Source of the DNA: an uncultured Flavobacteriales bacterium
Lineage (GTDB): Bacteria > Bacteroidota > Bacteroidia > Flavobacteriales_D > Parvicellaceae
DNA length: 47,569 bases
Direction: 5' to 3'
Assembly (NCBI GenBank): GCA_913030835.1
Contig: CAJWDP010000022.1
Location: forward strand, 1 to 47,569
Shown here: in pieces, positions 1 to 7,497 of the stretch
Numbering within the stretch: position 1 is the stretch's first letter
Layout of the letters: each line of letters starts with the position of its first letter
Made by a program: the position numbers and the translations under genes
Notes under the pieces: generated by a model
What the model saw: the letters and a program-made list of their open reading frames with translations, nothing else
The model's database searches: none
Told to the model about the DNA's origin: nothing

Positions 1-101
1 CTTTCGCTCCCCTTGCCTAACCATAAAACTACTTTCTTACTACTTAATTTTGCCTAACTCGAATGTATAGACAAAAAGTGTAATCGCATTGGTGCTTTCG
101 G
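1..101 (-). repeat. Tandem unit copy C, cut by window edge
   Basis: This is the leftmost of three related units read on the minus strand. Positions 1-55 are identical to 500-554 (copy A). The unit keeps the same landmarks as the other copies: CCGAAA (minus strand, 96-101), then 41 bases, then GGCAAAA (48-54), then a block containing TATGGTTAG and the start of a GC-rich hairpin (1-12) whose other arm lies outside the window. No conserved reading frame is shared by all copies. It could be a small RNA or a 3'-end/terminator repeat. Confidence 0.75.
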
Positions 102-240
102 CAAGTGGCAGTAAATTGTCGTTGAATACAATCGATATTGCGATGTCCTAAAATCCTCTACTTTCGAGGTGTATTGTTTAACTATAAAATGACGGTGGTT
201 GAGAAAAGGGCCAGATGAATTGGGATAAATTATTAGGGCA

Positions 241-267
241 AAAGAAAAGGGAAGATTGCCCTTCCCT
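241..267 (-). terminator. Intrinsic terminator of unit B
   Basis: On the minus strand GGGAAG (262-267) pairs with CTTCCC (250-255) across a six-base loop, followed by TTTTCTTTT (241-249). The stem is kept while the loop differs from copy A, as expected for a selected RNA structure. Confidence 0.65.
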
Positions 268-353
268 GATCTAACCATAACCACTTTTATTCCTACTTAT
301 TTTTGCCTGTATTGAAACTACGCTTTATTACTGTTTCACGTCTATTCTTTCGG
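241..353 (-). repeat. Tandem unit copy B (diverged)
   Basis: Middle copy, more diverged. On the minus strand it has CCGAAA (348-353), a 40-base spacer, GGCAAAA (301-307), ATAAGTAGG and TATGGTTAG, then the hairpin at 250-267. The spacer sequence differs from copies A and C but its length is kept. The GCCT landmark lies 253 bases from copy C and 246 from copy A, so the units repeat with a period of about 250 bases. Confidence 0.7.
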
Positions 354-484
354 TGAATGACATAAAATAATCGATAAAGCGCATAATTTATCGACGAATG
401 GTTTTGGGAAAAGTTCTCAATTCAGGAGGTTTTATTGTTTTCATACACAATTTTACCTTTTCTCGATGTAAATTAAAAGATTAC

Positions 485-511
485 AAAAAGAAAGGGAAGC
501 TTTCGCTCCCC
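485..511 (-). terminator. Intrinsic terminator with GAAA tetraloop
   Basis: On the minus strand GGGGAGC (505-511) pairs with GCTTCCC (494-500) across a GAAA loop (501-504), one G-T pair in the stem, followed by a T-rich run (486-493). This fits a rho-independent terminator for transcription coming from yggS or from repeat unit A. Confidence 0.7.
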
Positions 512-599
512 TTGCCTAACCATAAAACTACTTTCTTACTACTTAATTTTGCCTGACTTAAAACTAGGAAACATAGCAATCTGATTGTATAAGTTTCGG
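485..599 (-). repeat. Tandem unit copy A
   Basis: Copy closest to yggS. On the minus strand it shows CCGAAA (594-599), a 40-base spacer, GGCAAAA (547-553), AAGTAGTAAG, TATGGTTAG and a terminator hairpin (494-511). Upstream similarity to copy B (ATCGA followed by an AT-rich stretch) extends to about 640. A read-through transcript from yggS (same strand, ending at 667) could include it; I found no exact Bacteroidota promoter directly upstream. Confidence 0.75.
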
Positions 600-666
600 T
601 AAGTCGACAGAATTATTCGATAAGTTACTGTTCAGAGGTTGGTTGTTTTGATCTATGCTGAAATCC

Positions 667-1329
667 TCAGATTCTACTGCCAAATATCAAAGAACCCACG
701 CGTACCATAGTACTTCCTTTTTTGATCGCTAATTTGTAGTCACCGCTCATACCCATTGAGACCTCCTTGAATTGGTTGTCATCCTGGAAAAATTCATCTT
801 TCATTTCTTGAAATGTGTTGTGCAAAGAATCAAATTCCATGCTAATTTGGTTCTCGTCCTGTGTAAAAGAGGCCATGCCCATAACTCCACAGATTTCAAT
901 ATGCTGCATACTTTTGTATTCAGCGCTGTTCAGTATGATCTTTCCTTCTTTTCGACTTAAACCAAATTTTGATTCTTCTTGGCTGATATTGAATTGAAGC
1001 AAACACCGGATTGTCCTGTTGTGTTTTTTTCCATGTTTGTTAATTTCCTGAAGTAGTTTAAGACTGTCAACCGAATGGATCAGATGAACAAATTCAGCGA
1101 TGTATTTAACTTTATTTCGTTGCAAATGTCCTATGAAGTGCCATTTAATGTCTGCTGGTAGCTCACTGTGTTTCGTTACTAATTCCTGAACTTTATTTTC
1201 TCCAAAATCTCTTTGCCCCCCTTCGTAAGCGGCTTGTATGATATTGGCTGGTTTGGTTTTTGAAACAGCAATCAACAGAACATTTTCAGGAATCTCATCT
1301 TGGATATTTCTTAAATTGACTTGAATCAT
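667..1329 (-). CDS. yggS: YggS/PLPBP-family pyridoxal phosphate homeostasis protein
   Basis: A 220-residue cytoplasmic protein of the alanine-racemase-like TIM-barrel family that binds PLP without known catalysis and is thought to buffer free PLP. The PLP lysine is K24 in AVSKTKP; the family signatures DFGENKVQE, WHFIGHLQRNK and GMSGDY near the C-terminus are all present. Length is normal (about 220-235). The ATG at 1329 fits the usual short N-terminus. It is divergent from the sensor gene at 1404 with about 75 bases between them. Family assignment is very secure; the precise partner enzymes in this organism are not visible here. Confidence 0.95.
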   Translation of the reverse strand: MIQVNLRNIQDEIPENVLLIAVSKTKPANIIQAAYEGGQRDFGENKVQELVTKHSELPADIKWHFIGHLQRNKVKYIAEFVHLIHSVDSLKLLQEINKHGKKHNRTIRCLLQFNISQEESKFGLSRKEGKIILNSAEYKSMQHIEICGVMGMASFTQDENQISMEFDSLHNTFQEMKDEFFQDDNQFKEVSMGMSGDYKLAIKKGSTMVRVGSLIFGSRI

Positions 1330-1403
1330 GTTTCAAGTTTATGAAGAATATGCTGCATTAGACCAAATATCATATCGTTTTTCGTTACTTTTCTAATATT
1401 GAA

Positions 1404-4400
1404 ATGAAACGAATCGCGTCTTTTATATTTTTATTATTCGCTCCCTCTATTGGATTTTGTCTTGATCTGACTCCCCATACCCCCTTTTATCTTGAATCGT
1501 GGTTCTTTGCTTTGGTTGCTGGGTTTGTAGTGCTTATAGTGTTTTTTCTTTACCGTCTAGGCTCCTCTGTACAATCGGTTACGGATAACTATTCTTTGTT
1601 GGAACAACCATTGGGTATCAATCGTTTGATCTTACTTTTTTTTGGTTTTGTTTATCCTATAGGCACGGTTGTGAATACCATTATTGATACAAAACTGAAA
1701 ACGTCGCAACCTGAATTGGCAATTGCAATTGGAGTGCTTAGTCTGGGAGCTCTTGCTGGGAGTTACCGAATTAGATTATTAAAACGCTATATAGCTATGA
1801 GTGTTTTGCTCGGTTATCTGCTGATTGTGATTCACATCCTAACGCTAATTCTATTAAATGACGCAAGCCGAGTTCATGTAAATGCCTTTATTCTGTCCGT
1901 GGTATTTGGAAGCGTTTTGTTTGGTTCATTGAAAAAGTTCTATCTGTTTGCCATGGTTGTTTTCTGCGCTATGATTGGCATTGCTTTTATGATAGATAAA
2001 GAGTACGCTGGAAAGGTTCAATTGGTAATTGTTTCGTTCTGGACCTTGCTGGTAGCCGCAATGCTTATAGTCGTTAAACTCAATTTGATACAGAAATTAA
2101 GATTATCTGATACGATTTTAAAGAAAGGAGACTCTATTATATTGGTTTGTGACTCTAAGTACAAAATAATTTACGCAAGCAATAGTATTGAAGAAAAACT
2201 GGGGTATGCCTTGGAAGACGTGTATGGTGAGGGGTGGTGGATGCTTAGAGAAAAGTACGATAACTTAAAGAGAGAAGACCTTATAGGATACGATGACTTT
2301 AAGCAGGGAACAAAATTGTACACCAATACCATAACAGATTCAGAAGGAGTAAAAAAATATTTTAGCTGGACCGATACGAAAATCGAAGGTGGACTTATTA
2401 TCGGAGTTGGTCAAGATATAACCTCTACTCATTTGTATCAGGAAGAAATGAACCGATTGTCTTTAGTGGCCAAAAACACGGACAATTACGTCGTAATATC
2501 GGATTCCAACGAAATCGTTTTGTGGGTAAATAGTGCTTTTGAAGACATATTCAAATTCAAATCCGATGAAATTCTTGGAAAGAAAATATCGAGCATTTTC
2601 AATACAGAAGAGCTGAATCCGATGCTTTATAAAAAGGTTCAGAAACATGTTTTCGAAGAAAAAATGCCCTTTCGTGGTGAATTAACGGAAATGGATGCTA
2701 ACGGCAACCATTTATGGTTATCGGTTAACATAACACCCATTCTAAGTGAGGACGGGGAATTGGAACAACTGATTACCGTAGGATCTGACATAACGGATAA
2801 CAAATTGGACGAATTCCAATTGAATGAATATTCAAAGAAATTGGAATTGATGCATGAAATCGACAACATTCTTATTGAGGAGAACACAGAGTTGGTAATG
2901 ATCAATGACTTGCTCAAGGTCATTAAATACAGTAATAGTATGTATACAAAGGTGTCTATCATGCTATTTGACGATGAATTAAAAAATTGTAATAATTATT
3001 TTCTGGATGACAATAGCACGGAGATTTCATTTGAAACTGATCTAGACCTTACTACTTTTGGATCACTTGAAAAACTAAAATCCAATAAATCGTATTTAGT
3101 AGATGATCTGGAAGCAAGTGCAAGTTCTGCATCTGATATGCAATTATTGCAAGAAGGGATAAAGAGTTATTTGATGGTTCCATTGGTAGTAGGAGATAGG
3201 ATTCTAGGCACATTAAACGTCGGTGGATCAATGCCGTTCATTTTTGTTGATGATGAGATTAGCCTGATTGAAGAAATTGCAGACTCAGTAACGGTTTCTT
3301 ACAAACAAAGAGATCAGTCGAGTAAGATCATGGAGAGCGAAGAGAACTTCCGGCAGTTGAATGAATCGTTGAAGGAGGTATTCTGGTTTTTTGATCAGGA
3401 AAATTCCAAAATGCTCTATCTAAGCAAGGCGTTTAACACGATCTTCGGTATTCCTCAAGAGAAAATGTTTGAAAACCCTATGATCTGGATGGAGTCGGTA
3501 ATTGCGGAGGATCGGGTTAGGATACAGCGGACCTATTTAGCGGAAGTTTTTGCTGATGGTTTTGACGAGCAATTTCAAATCATCCATCCTGAAGTGGGAA
3601 TCAAATGGGTGCATGCCACTTCGGTACCCATCAGGAATGCTGATGGTGAGGTGGTCCGAATATCGGGGTTTGTTGAAGATATTACTGAGCTGAAGAACAA
3701 AGAGGAGGAGCTGGGCAAACTAAACACGAAACTAGAATCCATTAATAACATCAATGAAAGTATTCTGGGAAATGAGCCTTTCGGGAAAGTCTTGCTTACA
3801 TCGCTAAAACGATTGGGATTTGTTCAGAGTGATATTCATCAATTGAGCATATTCCTATTCAACTTTGAAAAAAACGAATTTGTTCGGTTTATGATAGATA
3901 ACCAGCTGATCAGTTTCAATAGATCGAGCGAAAGATTTTCTATTAATTCAATTGTTCAACTCGATAAGCTTAGAAGTGGAAAAACAAATGTACTTGACCG
4001 TGAGGATGTGATCGATTATGCAGAATCGGGTATTCCATTTTCTGAAAATGATTTAATTCAACACATTGTTCAGGTACCGCTAATATTTGATCGTGAGCTT
4101 ATCGGAACACTGAATTTAGGATTAAGTGAAGGTGAAGATATAAATGAAACCTTTTTAAGAGGACTGGAGGATATAGCGAAAGGTATGTCACTTTCCATTC
4201 ATCAGATGCAATTGAAGGCAGTAATTGAATCGGATAAAGAAGAGCTGACCTCAAAAAATCGAGACATTACCGCTAGTATTAATTATGCAAGTAGGATTCA
4301 AAAAGCTCATCTACCGGATCTTCAAGTAATTCGTCAGAATTTCGCAGATGCACAGCTTTACTATGTGGCTAAGGATATTGTTTCCGGCGACTTTTATTGG

Positions 4401-5018
4401 TGGGATATTAAGGATGAAAAATTGATAATCGTAGTTGCAGATTGCACCGGACATGGCGTTCCCGGTGGTTTCATGACAATTCTTGGCGCTCAAACAATTG
4501 ATAAGATTGTCCATAACTTGGGAATTACCAACCCAGGATTGCTATTGCATAAATTGGACGAAGAAATTCAATTGGTATTGGGTGATTCACAGGATACCAT
4601 GGGAGATGGAATGGATGTGGCTGTTTGTGTTTATGATCTAAATGAGCAAACAATTGAATACGCCGGAGCTAGAAGACCAATTGTTTTTCTAAAAGATGGA
4701 AAACTACAAGAGCTTAAAGGTACATTTAGGTCTATTGGTGAGCATGAGCTCGAACATGTAGATTTTGTTACGCATGAAATTGTTTTAGACAAGGGAGATC
4801 GATTTTTTCTTTTCTCTGATGGCGCTCAGGATCAATTTGGTGGTCCAGACAGACCTAGAAAGTTTTCTAAAAAGCGAATGCAGGATTTGATTCAGAATAA
4901 GCAATACCTGAATGTTACTCTCGATGAACACTTTGAGGTAATCATCAATAGCCTTAATGAATGGAAAGGAGAGCGGGAATTGACAGATGACATTACAATC
5001 TTGGCAATTGAGAATTAG
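1404..5018 (+). CDS. Membrane multi-PAS/GAF sensor with SpoIIE-type phosphatase output
   Basis: A 1204-residue signalling protein. Residues 1-20 look like a signal peptide or first helix, followed by about seven hydrophobic segments up to residue 230. Then come PAS domains (about 245-345, 350-470 and 655-770) and GAF domains (about 480-640 and 785-940). The C-terminal part (961-1204) is a PP2C/SpoIIE serine phosphatase: metal-binding acidic motifs are visible as GDF (995-997), DCTGHG (1013-1018), GMDVAV (1069-1074), SDG (1138-1140) and DDIT (1195-1198). It probably dephosphorylates an anti-sigma-antagonist-like (STAS) or other Ser/Thr-phosphorylated partner in response to ligand or redox signals; no such partner is encoded nearby. 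It converges with another PAS/GAF gene (5028-7433). Confidence 0.9.
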   Translation: MKRIASFIFLLFAPSIGFCLDLTPHTPFYLESWFFALVAGFVVLIVFFLYRLGSSVQSVTDNYSLLEQPLGINRLILLFFGFVYPIGTVVNTIIDTKLKTSQPELAIAIGVLSLGALAGSYRIRLLKRYIAMSVLLGYLLIVIHILTLILLNDASRVHVNAFILSVVFGSVLFGSLKKFYLFAMVVFCAMIGIAFMIDKEYAGKVQLVIVSFWTLLVAAMLIVVKLNLIQKLRLSDTILKKGDSIILVCDSKYKIIYASNSIEEKLGYALEDVYGEGWWMLREKYDNLKREDLIGYDDFKQGTKLYTNTITDSEGVKKYFSWTDTKIEGGLIIGVGQDITSTHLYQEEMNRLSLVAKNTDNYVVISDSNEIVLWVNSAFEDIFKFKSDEILGKKISSIFNTEELNPMLYKKVQKHVFEEKMPFRGELTEMDANGNHLWLSVNITPILSEDGELEQLITVGSDITDNKLDEFQLNEYSKKLELMHEIDNILIEENTELVMINDLLKVIKYSNSMYTKVSIMLFDDELKNCNNYFLDDNSTEISFETDLDLTTFGSLEKLKSNKSYLVDDLEASASSASDMQLLQEGIKSYLMVPLVVGDRILGTLNVGGSMPFIFVDDEISLIEEIADSVTVSYKQRDQSSKIMESEENFRQLNESLKEVFWFFDQENSKMLYLSKAFNTIFGIPQEKMFENPMIWMESVIAEDRVRIQRTYLAEVFADGFDEQFQIIHPEVGIKWVHATSVPIRNADGEVVRISGFVEDITELKNKEEELGKLNTKLESINNINESILGNEPFGKVLLTSLKRLGFVQSDIHQLSIFLFNFEKNEFVRFMIDNQLISFNRSSERFSINSIVQLDKLRSGKTNVLDREDVIDYAESGIPFSENDLIQHIVQVPLIFDRELIGTLNLGLSEGEDINETFLRGLEDIAKGMSLSIHQMQLKAVIESDKEELTSKNRDITASINYASRIQKAHLPDLQVIRQNFADAQLYYVAKDIVSGDFYWWDIKDEKLIIVVADCTGHGVPGGFMTILGAQTIDKIVHNLGITNPGLLLHKLDEEIQLVLGDSQDTMGDGMDVAVCVYDLNEQTIEYAGARRPIVFLKDGKLQELKGTFRSIGEHELEHVDFVTHEIVLDKGDRFFLFSDGAQDQFGGPDRPRKFSKKRMQDLIQNKQYLNVTLDEHFEVIINSLNEWKGERELTDDITILAIEN

Positions 5019-5043
5019 CAGCTTGAATTAGGCTAAAGTTTTT
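5015..5043. terminator. Weak inverted repeat between convergent sensor genes
   Basis: TTAGC (5015-5019) can pair with GCTAA (5032-5036), followed by AGTTTTT on the plus strand. The stem is only five base pairs, so this is a weak candidate terminator for the plus-strand sensor gene, which ends at 5018. Confidence 0.25.
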
Positions 5044-7433
5044 GATTTAAATTGACTGTTTTTGATCGCAATACAAGTATAATTCGCTAAGTTTTCCAAC
5101 ATGTCTAATTGAGAATGGTTGTACGCATTTTTGTTGTAGGATTGAACCGTTATCACCCCAAGTTTTTCGTTATTGAATAGCAGGGGTTGAAACAACAATG
5201 ATTCGGGATTTTCTATTTCCTCGTCATAGTTTTCTGACAGGACATACTTTTTGTATTCTTTGGAATTATCGTTGATAAATATGGGTTTGGCATTGTTGAA
5301 ACACCAATTAGAATATATGTTTTTATCATGCACGGAAATAAATCCATGCTGTACACGCGCTCCACTTTCAAACTCGTAATTGTATTCGAGTTCTTCCTTT
5401 TCCGAATGGTAGATTCTTATTCCAAAAATGGTCGTATCCATGAGCTGGCTGATTTGCTCATGAAGTTTGTTGAATATTGAATCAAAATCATTTGTAGTTG
5501 AGATAATTTGACCAACCTGATTGATTATTTTTTGTTGCTGATTTGTTTTCTGAAGTTTAATCTTTTGCATAATAATCTCTCTTGTTTTGTTGTCCAATAA
5601 TTTTTCATTGGTCTCAAAACGACTTGCATTATTTACCGCGATTGAAATGTAGTTGGATAGAATTTTCAGTATAAAAACATTCTTGTCTCCATATTTATTT
5701 TTGCTATACGATTGCGCTGTAATAACTCCGATTTTTTCACTATCAAAAAACATGGGTAAATAGACTAGTGATGAGGGTTTTTTTCCGGGTATTTTCCCTC
5801 GATCATAGGAGTCAACGTATTTGAAAACATCCTTTTCAAAACTGTTTACAATGATGTCCATGCCATTATTGAAACATGCTGCACCCAAACTTTTTTTATC
5901 CGAAAGATCAAAATTAAATTCTGGTAACACCTTTCCATATTCAACAACACTCTTAAATTCAAGCACGTGAGCTTTTGTATTTAGAACACCAAATCCAAAG
6001 ATTGGCGCATCCATGATTTCGTTAACCTCCTTATAGAGCTGTTTACTGATTTCTTCAATATTCAAAAATGAAAGAATCTTTGTGCCCAATTTATGAAGGG
6101 ATTCTTCAAGCTGGCCGTATTTTTTACTACGGTCGATAGAATTGTATTGATTAATAAACAAGGCCAGCGACACAGATAGGTCAATCAAAAGTCCAACAAT
6201 GCTTTCATCAAATTTGTCTTCTTCTTTATCAGCAATACTAAGGAACCCTAGAATATTATCGTTTAGACTTATCGGAATGGATAGAATTGATCTGAAACCT
6301 GAATCGTATAGCCTTTTTTCAGTTGCGGTCGTATTGTTTCCATCAATGTTAGGGTTATGATAAATGTCCCCTTGAAGCAATTGCTGCAAACCGGGAACTA
6401 CCTTGATCGGCATTTTTTTACCCTCATAGAATTTACCCGTATCATCGATCGAATAGGAATACGATGTAAGCTCCGACATTTCAGCATTTAACAAGGAAAT
6501 ATCTGTTGAATACACCGATAGGTTTAATGTGATTGACTTTAATATGTTCCTTGTTTTTTGAAGAAAATCAGTTTCTGCAATCATCAAGTGGTTGATGTCA
6601 TTGAGCAAACGCAATTGTAGGTTTTTCTTGCTTGTTCTGAATTCTTTTGTTCTTACTTCCTGCTCCTCTTCATACCGATTAGATATGTCGCTCCAAACTG
6701 CAAAATAGATACGCCTGGCATCCAGCGTTATCAGGGAGAGCGAAACATTAACAAAAAACTCTTTGCCACTTTTATCCCTATACATCCATTCAAACTTGTG
6801 ACTGCCATACTGAAGAGCTAGATTACTGATTTTCCATGCTGCCCTGACCGGATCATCGATATAGGGTTGTTCGCTTGCGGAAAAATCAGAGGGAACCAAC
6901 CCGGCTAGTTCTTTCACATCTGAAAAGCCTAAAATATCTAAGAATGCCTGATTGCAATCGATAATTCCTTTAGGGTCGTAATACACAATTGGATTTAAGG
7001 TTTTTTCGAATAGCAGCTTAAATTTTTCTTCAGACCTTACCAGTCCCTTCTTTTCCACAAATTCACTCGTTATCTCATGGAAAAGGCCTTTCAGAATAAA
7101 TTCGTCACTGTCTTTACTGATAACGCAGTTGCCATTCACAACAATCTCGGCCCCAAGCTTGGATACAAGTCGAAGGGTTACGTTTTGATGACTTGATACG
7201 ACTTCGAATAAATTTTTGAATATCCGACTGGAATCGTAGTGTAGGATGGAGATGAAATTGAGTTGCTCAATTTCTTCTTCCTTGTAATGCATTCTTTCTT
7301 GGAAATGTCTGTTTGCGAAAAGCAATCTCCCTTCTTCCGTAACGAGAAAAATGAAGTCACCTGAACTATCCATCAACTCTTCGTAGTAAACTAGGGTTCT
7401 TCGTATGTGCTCAGTATCTTTATTTGCTTCCAT
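5028..7433 (-). CDS. PAS-PAS-GAF-GAF-GAF sensor protein without output domain
   Basis: An 801-residue, apparently soluble protein. It begins with two PAS domains (about 15-125 and 130-250; the second resembles S-box PAS with the SGKEFFVNVSLS strand), then three GAF domains (about 280-420, 440-590 and 625-795) of the type seen in Bacteroidota histidine kinases (each with an LxxPL or LxxPI element followed by LGVITxQS or LGFLSI). No HisKA, HATPase, GGDEF, EAL, SpoIIE or DNA-binding domain follows; the protein ends after the last GAF. I chose the ATG at 7433 (MEANKDTEH) rather than the longer frame, because the extra 17 residues are not domain-like and would overlap bshC's upstream region. It converges with the SpoIIE sensor and may act as a ligand-binding adaptor; that role is inference. 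Confidence 0.8.
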   Translation of the reverse strand: MEANKDTEHIRRTLVYYEELMDSSGDFIFLVTEEGRLLFANRHFQERMHYKEEEIEQLNFISILHYDSSRIFKNLFEVVSSHQNVTLRLVSKLGAEIVVNGNCVISKDSDEFILKGLFHEITSEFVEKKGLVRSEEKFKLLFEKTLNPIVYYDPKGIIDCNQAFLDILGFSDVKELAGLVPSDFSASEQPYIDDPVRAAWKISNLALQYGSHKFEWMYRDKSGKEFFVNVSLSLITLDARRIYFAVWSDISNRYEEEQEVRTKEFRTSKKNLQLRLLNDINHLMIAETDFLQKTRNILKSITLNLSVYSTDISLLNAEMSELTSYSYSIDDTGKFYEGKKMPIKVVPGLQQLLQGDIYHNPNIDGNNTTATEKRLYDSGFRSILSIPISLNDNILGFLSIADKEEDKFDESIVGLLIDLSVSLALFINQYNSIDRSKKYGQLEESLHKLGTKILSFLNIEEISKQLYKEVNEIMDAPIFGFGVLNTKAHVLEFKSVVEYGKVLPEFNFDLSDKKSLGAACFNNGMDIIVNSFEKDVFKYVDSYDRGKIPGKKPSSLVYLPMFFDSEKIGVITAQSYSKNKYGDKNVFILKILSNYISIAVNNASRFETNEKLLDNKTREIIMQKIKLQKTNQQQKIINQVGQIISTTNDFDSIFNKLHEQISQLMDTTIFGIRIYHSEKEELEYNYEFESGARVQHGFISVHDKNIYSNWCFNNAKPIFINDNSKEYKKYVLSENYDEEIENPESLLFQPLLFNNEKLGVITVQSYNKNAYNHSQLDMLENLANYTCIAIKNSQFKSKTLA

Positions 7434-7497
7434 CCTGTTCTGATAAATATAATGATTTATTACCATCTTTGTGGTGCAGAACATTAGGCCTGAACAG

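Follow-up and report, generated by a model that had tools for sequence, protein, structure and literature searches.

An array of repeated units on the minus strand of the window (the whole stretch of DNA analysed here, 47,569 nucleotides from an uncultured Flavobacteriales bacterium) probably represents a set of sibling small-RNA (sRNA) genes, whose products would act in trans and would be switched on together by one activator, in the manner of the LhrC RNAs of Listeria and the csRNAs of Streptococcus. This reading, to which a probability of roughly 0.7 is given, draws on features of the DNA itself: the repetition of the units, a promoter box at a fixed spacing, upstream sites in phase with one another, the conservation of the transcript, the terminators, the hairpins found in the copies of relatives, a common locus, and copies dispersed elsewhere. 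Transcription itself, an activator, base pairing in trans and mRNA targets would all be expected under it.

The array and its promoters

The array is located 3' of yggS, between this gene and a gene for a HEAT-repeat protein, in the genome designated G000. As the initial annotation had described, three units follow one another with periods of 246 and 253 bases, and their predicted first transcribed bases (+1) are 554 (unit A), 308 (unit B) and 55 (unit C). Each unit appears to hold two or three upstream sites centred on CGA, a -7 box of the Bacteroidota type, a start at AGGCAAAA, a predicted RNA of ~70 nt and an intrinsic terminator, unit C being truncated at the left edge of the window. The local alignment scores between units (A-B 71, A-C 113, B-C 42) all exceed the maxima obtained from 500 dinucleotide shuffles each (29, 29 and 30, respectively). 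Hairpins followed by a T-run, already noticed in copies A and B, were recovered by a terminator scan, which gave three such sites (two of them being one hairpin in A) against a mean of 1.0 (sd 1.2) in shuffles. The gene upstream of the array is taken to be yggS, a name that comes from the initial annotation and fits the family; its nearest named relatives (best 54% identity, Taibaiella), like the -7 box, point to a member of the Bacteroidota. The features are the following:

667-1329, minus strand: presumed yggS (PLP-homeostasis protein family), upstream of the array; ORF of 220 aa whose relatives adjoin units in other genomes
596-619, minus strand: unit A, probable activator sites with CGA at -65 and -44, read directly and in agreement with the phased peaks over 24 promoters
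559-566, minus strand: unit A, -7 box TAGTTTTA at -12 to -5, at this distance from +1 in almost every copy and in agreement with the published TAnnTTTG
484-554, minus strand: unit A, predicted sRNA of ~71 nt with a type A 5' end AGGCAAAATTAAGTAGT and +1 at 554; 39/40 identical from +1 to +40 to the compared type A units of G001 and G002
492-513, minus strand: unit A, terminator hairpin (terminator scan), with the T-run downstream to ~484
350-393, minus strand: unit B, upstream CGA sites at -85, -65 and -44, read from the sequence
313-320, minus strand: unit B, -7 box TAGTTTCA, read from the sequence
238-308, minus strand: unit B, predicted sRNA with a type B 5' end AGGCAAAAATAAGTAGG and +1 at 308; 40/40 identical from +1 to +40 to unit 4 of G001
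248-267, minus strand: unit B, terminator hairpin (terminator scan)
98-121, minus strand: unit C, upstream CGA sites at -66 and -45, read directly
60-67, minus strand: unit C, -7 box TACATTCG, read from the sequence
1-55, minus strand: unit C, predicted sRNA (type A) read from the sequence and cut by the contig end; its last bases may stem from assembly overlap

The window is the whole of contig C22 of G000, and its base 1 is therefore a contig end. The identity between 1-55 and 500-554 covers exactly 55 bases at this end, which is typical of the k-mer overlap left by an assembler and may partly reflect assembly, so that the tail of unit C is not trustworthy letter by letter. Another terminator end (57 bases, 95%) opens contig C55 of G000, where the HEAT-repeat gene and purC come next. 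Since the letters of this terminator end differ from those at the edge of C22, there must be one more unit end at least, with the assembly broken off inside the array, which supports the earlier suggestion that the array runs past the left edge; no contig of G000 bridges C22 and C55. The window's genus (g1) comprises three genomes, G000, G001 and G002. The two parts of the G000 array have the same flanks (yggS on one side, the HEAT gene on the other) as in G001, where a single contig carries yggS, four complete units in the order A-A-A-B, the HEAT gene and purC, while the contig of G002 ends inside the first unit after yggS.

The units of the window are built of TAnnTTYn, four bases and AGGCAAAA. 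Those of genera g2, g7 and g3 consist of TAnnTTTR, four bases (five in G004), AGGGGTAGT, a hairpin and a terminator, and those of g8 begin with TAnnTTTG, four bases and GGGGTAGT. The spacing from the -7 box to +1 is fixed in nearly all copies. TAnnTTTG at -12 to -5 has been described as the housekeeping -7 box of Flavobacterium psychrophilum (PMC9723704), and it is because the pattern of the units matches this box and its spacing that the RNA is predicted to start at window positions 554, 308 and 55. The block that runs from CCGAAA to GGCAAAA, which the initial annotation had listed among the kept parts of each unit, would consequently belong to the promoter and not to the RNA. Its spacers do measure 40, 40 and 41 bases as counted before, with the CGA of CCGAAA at -44, -44 and -45; the argument built on them (that the 41-base spacer breaks any shared frame and so favours RNA over protein) loses its object, since the spacer lies upstream of the predicted transcription start. 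A terminator stem with a T-run is present in the copies whose sequence was read, unit C being cut off; judged by sequence, each copy appears to have a promoter and an intrinsic terminator of its own.

The upstream sites were analysed in 24 non-redundant promoters, after 13 of the 37 copies known in total (close orthologues or near-duplicates) had been left out by judgement. CGA is found at about -44 in 14 of the 24 (at one position, with one base of play allowed), near -66 in eight and near -86 in ten, that is, with a spacing of 20-22 bp. Random rotation of the promoters (2000 times) gave a maximum of 8 and a mean of 4.3, and thus the peak at -66, which by itself only equals the control maximum, owes its weight to being in phase with those at -44 and -86. 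These sites, which are absent in the copies of g7 and in several of g8, are a candidate for the common binding site of one activator. A LytTR-type activator, whose sites have a similar spacing (~21 bp), was considered and set aside because the base consensus fits only partly.

Conservation, folding and coding capacity of the predicted RNA

Conservation is concentrated in the predicted transcript. Between G000 and its congeners, the segment from +1 to +40 is identical at 39-40 of 40 positions in both type A and type B units, against 12-22 of 60 in the segment from -112 to -53. The closer pair G001/G002 shows 40/40 in the transcript and 39/60 upstream, and two species of g7 show 36/40 and 28/60, respectively. 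Types A and B have both been kept even though YggS identity between G000 and its congeners is only 61-62%. The 5' end is invariant, reading AGGCAAAAnUAAGUAG in the window's genus and, in relatives, (A)GGGGUAGUnAAAUAAU or a near variant of it. The possibility that the whole unit of ~250 nt is the RNA was rejected, as the relatives show the -7 box and the start, and only the ~70 nt downstream of them are kept.

In several folds, this 5' end is unpaired and is followed by a hairpin and then by the terminator. Folds with two hairpins were obtained for eight copies of relatives, with z-scores from -3.9 to -8.6. In the window's genus the middle hairpin is weak (z from -1.1 to -2.1) and only the terminator is strong, which indicates that the RNA there is essentially a 5' end plus a terminator. 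Changes in the stem of hairpin 1 retain pairing in relatives (for example, U-A to C-G and G-U to A-U); these pairs were read copy by copy, because MAFFT alignments that include the g3 copies misplace the arms of the hairpin. Hairpin 1 is broken in one g3 copy (G019a), and the 5' end may sometimes be occupied, as its GGGG pairs past hairpin 1 in some folds of g8 copies.

The longest ORF in the 37 transcripts, on either strand, has 15 aa and none is common to the whole set, in line with the absence of a shared ORF noted from the window. A transcript of ~70 nt with this property is a better argument against coding than the length of the spacer. It also makes it very improbable that the units are genes for short peptides, an idea that could appeal to an ATG that follows GGGG by 10-11 nt in g7 and in some of the g3 copies, but that has to face, in addition, the 1-nt indel by which types A and B differ in the alignment.

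Distribution and genomic context in relatives

A search with unit A against 60 genomes (G000 included) gave strong matches in G001 and G002 and short, weak ones in G038, G045 and G056. A covariance model built from eight units was then run over the 39 genomes of the taxonomic family, and found units at the yggS locus of g2 (E from 4e-4 to 1.6e-3) in three of its four genomes, missing that of G003. Among its weaker matches, L074 is a true g8 copy; L070, L072, L073, L075, L084 and L091 look like ends and terminators of other genes, and L076-L080, L083 and L085-L087 fell outside the set that was read. The core pattern of the window's genus, with two mismatches allowed, matched 65 of the 299 genomes of the order, but the reversed control also matched in many and the pattern was abandoned; its exact matches are confined to the window's genus, and those in the g2 genomes G003, G011, G018 and G024 lie at the right locus on the opposite strand and so pointed there by chance, the g2 RNA itself being identified with the covariance model and by visual inspection.

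Within the order (299 genomes), a strict pattern of promoter plus 5' end gave 16 matches in 10 genomes, none of them outside this family (two of the 16 being the palindrome described below), while its reversed control gave one. With a looser pattern, 43 matches were obtained in 22 of the 39 family genomes; on reading, 12 were judged to be due to chance (no hairpin or terminator), two were palindromic (G025:C158) and 29 were complete. With the eight units of the window's genus, and leaving out the 12 chance and two palindromic matches, the total is 37 copies in 20 of the 39 genomes: 8 in g1, 4 in g2, 8 in g3, 3 in g7 and 14 in g8. No true copy was seen in g4 (11 genomes), g5 (2), g6 (1), g9 (4) or G034 of g8, many of these genomes being incomplete, and the pattern search over 198 genomes of the phylum gave one match, which has neither hairpin nor terminator. 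The RNA family thus appears so far to be restricted to relatives of the window's bacterium.

Several homologous copies per genome, as is typical of sibling sRNAs, are found in a number of these bacteria: four in G001, three plus the further end in G000, one to three in six of the seven g8 genomes and one to three in all four g3 genomes (besides the two palindromic ones of G025). A single copy per genome was found in g2 and g7, and one is visible in G002. Tandem pairs occur also at a distance of 179 bp in G009 and of 434 bp in G025, while the g3 and g8 copies are mostly dispersed.

Counterparts lie directly 3' of yggS in 4/4 genomes of g2, 3/3 of g7 and 2/4 of g3. Position, promoter spacing and a modest covariance-model score, rather than strong identity, suggest that the RNA of the window's genus is homologous to that of the other genera. 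In g2 and g7 the single unit and its terminator are located just 5' of the HEAT gene and on the same strand, as would be the case if the RNA were the 5' leader of this gene and the terminator a regulated stop before it. Such an attenuator is improbable. In the stretches around the 22 g3 and g8 copies (~0.7-2 kb to each side, some of them shortened by a contig end), tblastn detected no HEAT gene; a leader with four terminators in a row, as in G001, would be strange; and the HEAT gene of G001 starts ~210 nt past the last of them. Moreover, no unit was seen in the g4, g5 and g9 loci that were read, where yggS and the HEAT gene are near neighbours.

The adjacency to yggS in four genera, together with the fact that terminators are the most obvious common part of the units, could likewise point to a terminator or 3'-UTR repeat tied to yggS, an option offered in the initial annotation; such a repeat would have been amplified by slippage and would have no product of its own. 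This is quite unlikely, given that hardly a letter has changed in the 5' half of the transcript, that the copies have their own -7 box at a constant distance and upstream sites in phase, and that 20 of the 22 g3 and g8 copies have no yggS nearby in the stretches fetched (the exceptions being G012a and G004). The other option it offered, a family of small RNAs, is the one favoured by the further conserved copies and by the lack of an ORF common to them.

Dispersal in several copies per genome in g3 and g8, the tandem pairs of G009 and G025 and the palindromic pair of G025 would also be compatible with a small mobile or REP-like intergenic repeat that spread without a regulatory role. This alternative is unlikely as well: genomes outside the window's genus hold only one to three typical copies, the copies are bounded by promoter and terminator with no terminal repeats seen, and the RNA is kept while the flanks diverge. 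Some g8 copies of different species share upstream DNA (52/60 between G032a and G027b), as inherited positions would.

Three further observations concern single sites. The start of contig G025:C158 (L156) carries at 43-110 a near-perfect palindrome that joins the promoter to the 5' half of the sRNA and has no terminator; it could be a chimera of the assembly or a genuine inverted pair. The gene 5' of the two tandem copies in G025:C212 (L162/L205) resembles, in our own reading, porX (a PglZ-type response regulator). In G045:C10 (L013), from another family, a terminator stem that differs very little from that of the units is found at ~1498-1530 in an unrelated place, and is a common type of terminator rather than a copy.

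Proposed regulation and comparison with known small RNAs

According to the sibling-sRNA reading, each unit would comprise a promoter with sites phased at ~21 bp, a non-coding RNA of ~70 nt and an intrinsic terminator. One putative activator would turn the copies on together by binding at about -44 and, in many of them, at -66 and/or -86 too, so that the sibling sRNAs would be made together under some condition. Their invariant 5' end would then pair with target mRNAs in trans, most likely without Hfq. Tandem duplication would raise the dosage of the sRNA, and the two types, A and B, may differ in their targets. A broader version of this model is tentative, and would hold for the Bacteroidota an Hfq-free regulon of sibling sRNAs under one activator with phased sites, in which tandem amplification in one genus both raises dosage and splits the 5' seed into the long-kept types A and B with different targets.

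Hfq, on which an Hfq-dependent sRNA would rely, was found in none of the 39 family genomes (E up to 0.001, in a search whose control rang in 5 of 14), and pairing would accordingly have to be Hfq-free or assisted by another chaperone. Exact complements of 11-12 nt to the 5' end gave no match kept between genomes, the second of these searches being confounded by promoter-like sequence.

In Listeria, the genes lhrC1-4 are placed in tandem, and the csRNAs of Streptococcus act by anti-Shine-Dalgarno pairing. LhrC1-5 are described as near-identical sRNAs with their own promoters, all of which need the response regulator LisR, the region upstream of -53 being important (PMC4132741). The array resembles them in having several near-identical copies per genome, each with a predicted promoter of its own; in contrast, it belongs to another phylum and no sequence relation is claimed, so that the likeness is one of organisation and not of family membership. 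The csRNAs are reported to number five, to be highly similar and to be controlled by a single response regulator, CiaR (PMC4507080), and here too the likeness lies in similar siblings proposed to be under one regulator, with no claim to a common family. Their mode of pairing is unlikely in the array, because mRNAs of Bacteroidota are described as having no Shine-Dalgarno sequences (PMC6847099). Mimicry of a Shine-Dalgarno sequence by GGGGU was discarded by reasoning, as it would form only ~5 pairs with the 16S end and is not kept in the window's genus. Closer in taxonomy is Rfp18 of F. psychrophilum, a conserved flavobacterial sRNA whose pairing region is placed in a third stem-loop, from the same organism in which the TAnnTTTG box was described (PMC9723704). 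Unlike Rfp18, the RNAs of the array have two hairpins and a candidate seed at the 5' end, a distinction that is drawn from its description and not from its sequence.

The known RNA motifs of Bacteroidota include Flavo-1 and Bacteroidales-1, with which the units had initially been compared. With Rfam release 15, cmscan of window positions 1-1400 gave no match to either at E up to 10, nor did four loci of relatives at E up to 2, and nothing reached the gathering score in the whole window or in those loci; matches to caiA, ctRNA and isrP were dismissed as far below their gathering scores. Membership of either motif, or of another Rfam family, is rejected. Of the initial interpretation the small-RNA family is supported, whereas the likeness to these motifs and the repeat tied to yggS are not, and the spacer argument does not apply. 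No published description of the RNA was found among the matches listed, which is weak evidence of absence, and the papers listed in a scan for the 5'-end letters were all unrelated. Our impression from the matches listed is that sRNA literature on the phylum deals mainly with Bacteroides and Flavobacterium. The RNA family offers predicted starts, an invariant 5' end, a candidate regulator site and a natural variation in copy number (from one to at least four). If real, it would make sRNA circuits testable in bacteria whose mRNAs have no Shine-Dalgarno sequences and, here, with no detectable Hfq.

Regarding the neighbourhood, yggS, a HEAT-repeat gene and purC occur in the same order, with no unit seen between them, in G040 (L118), from another family of the order, which suggests that this gene order is older than the RNA. 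Two large genes next to yggS in the window look by eye like genes for signalling proteins: one at 1404-5018 (plus strand), PAS/GAF-like with a PP2C-like end, and another at 5028-7484 (minus strand), PAS/GAF-like. Proteins similar to the product of the former also adjoin yggS, by eye, in G001 and G002.
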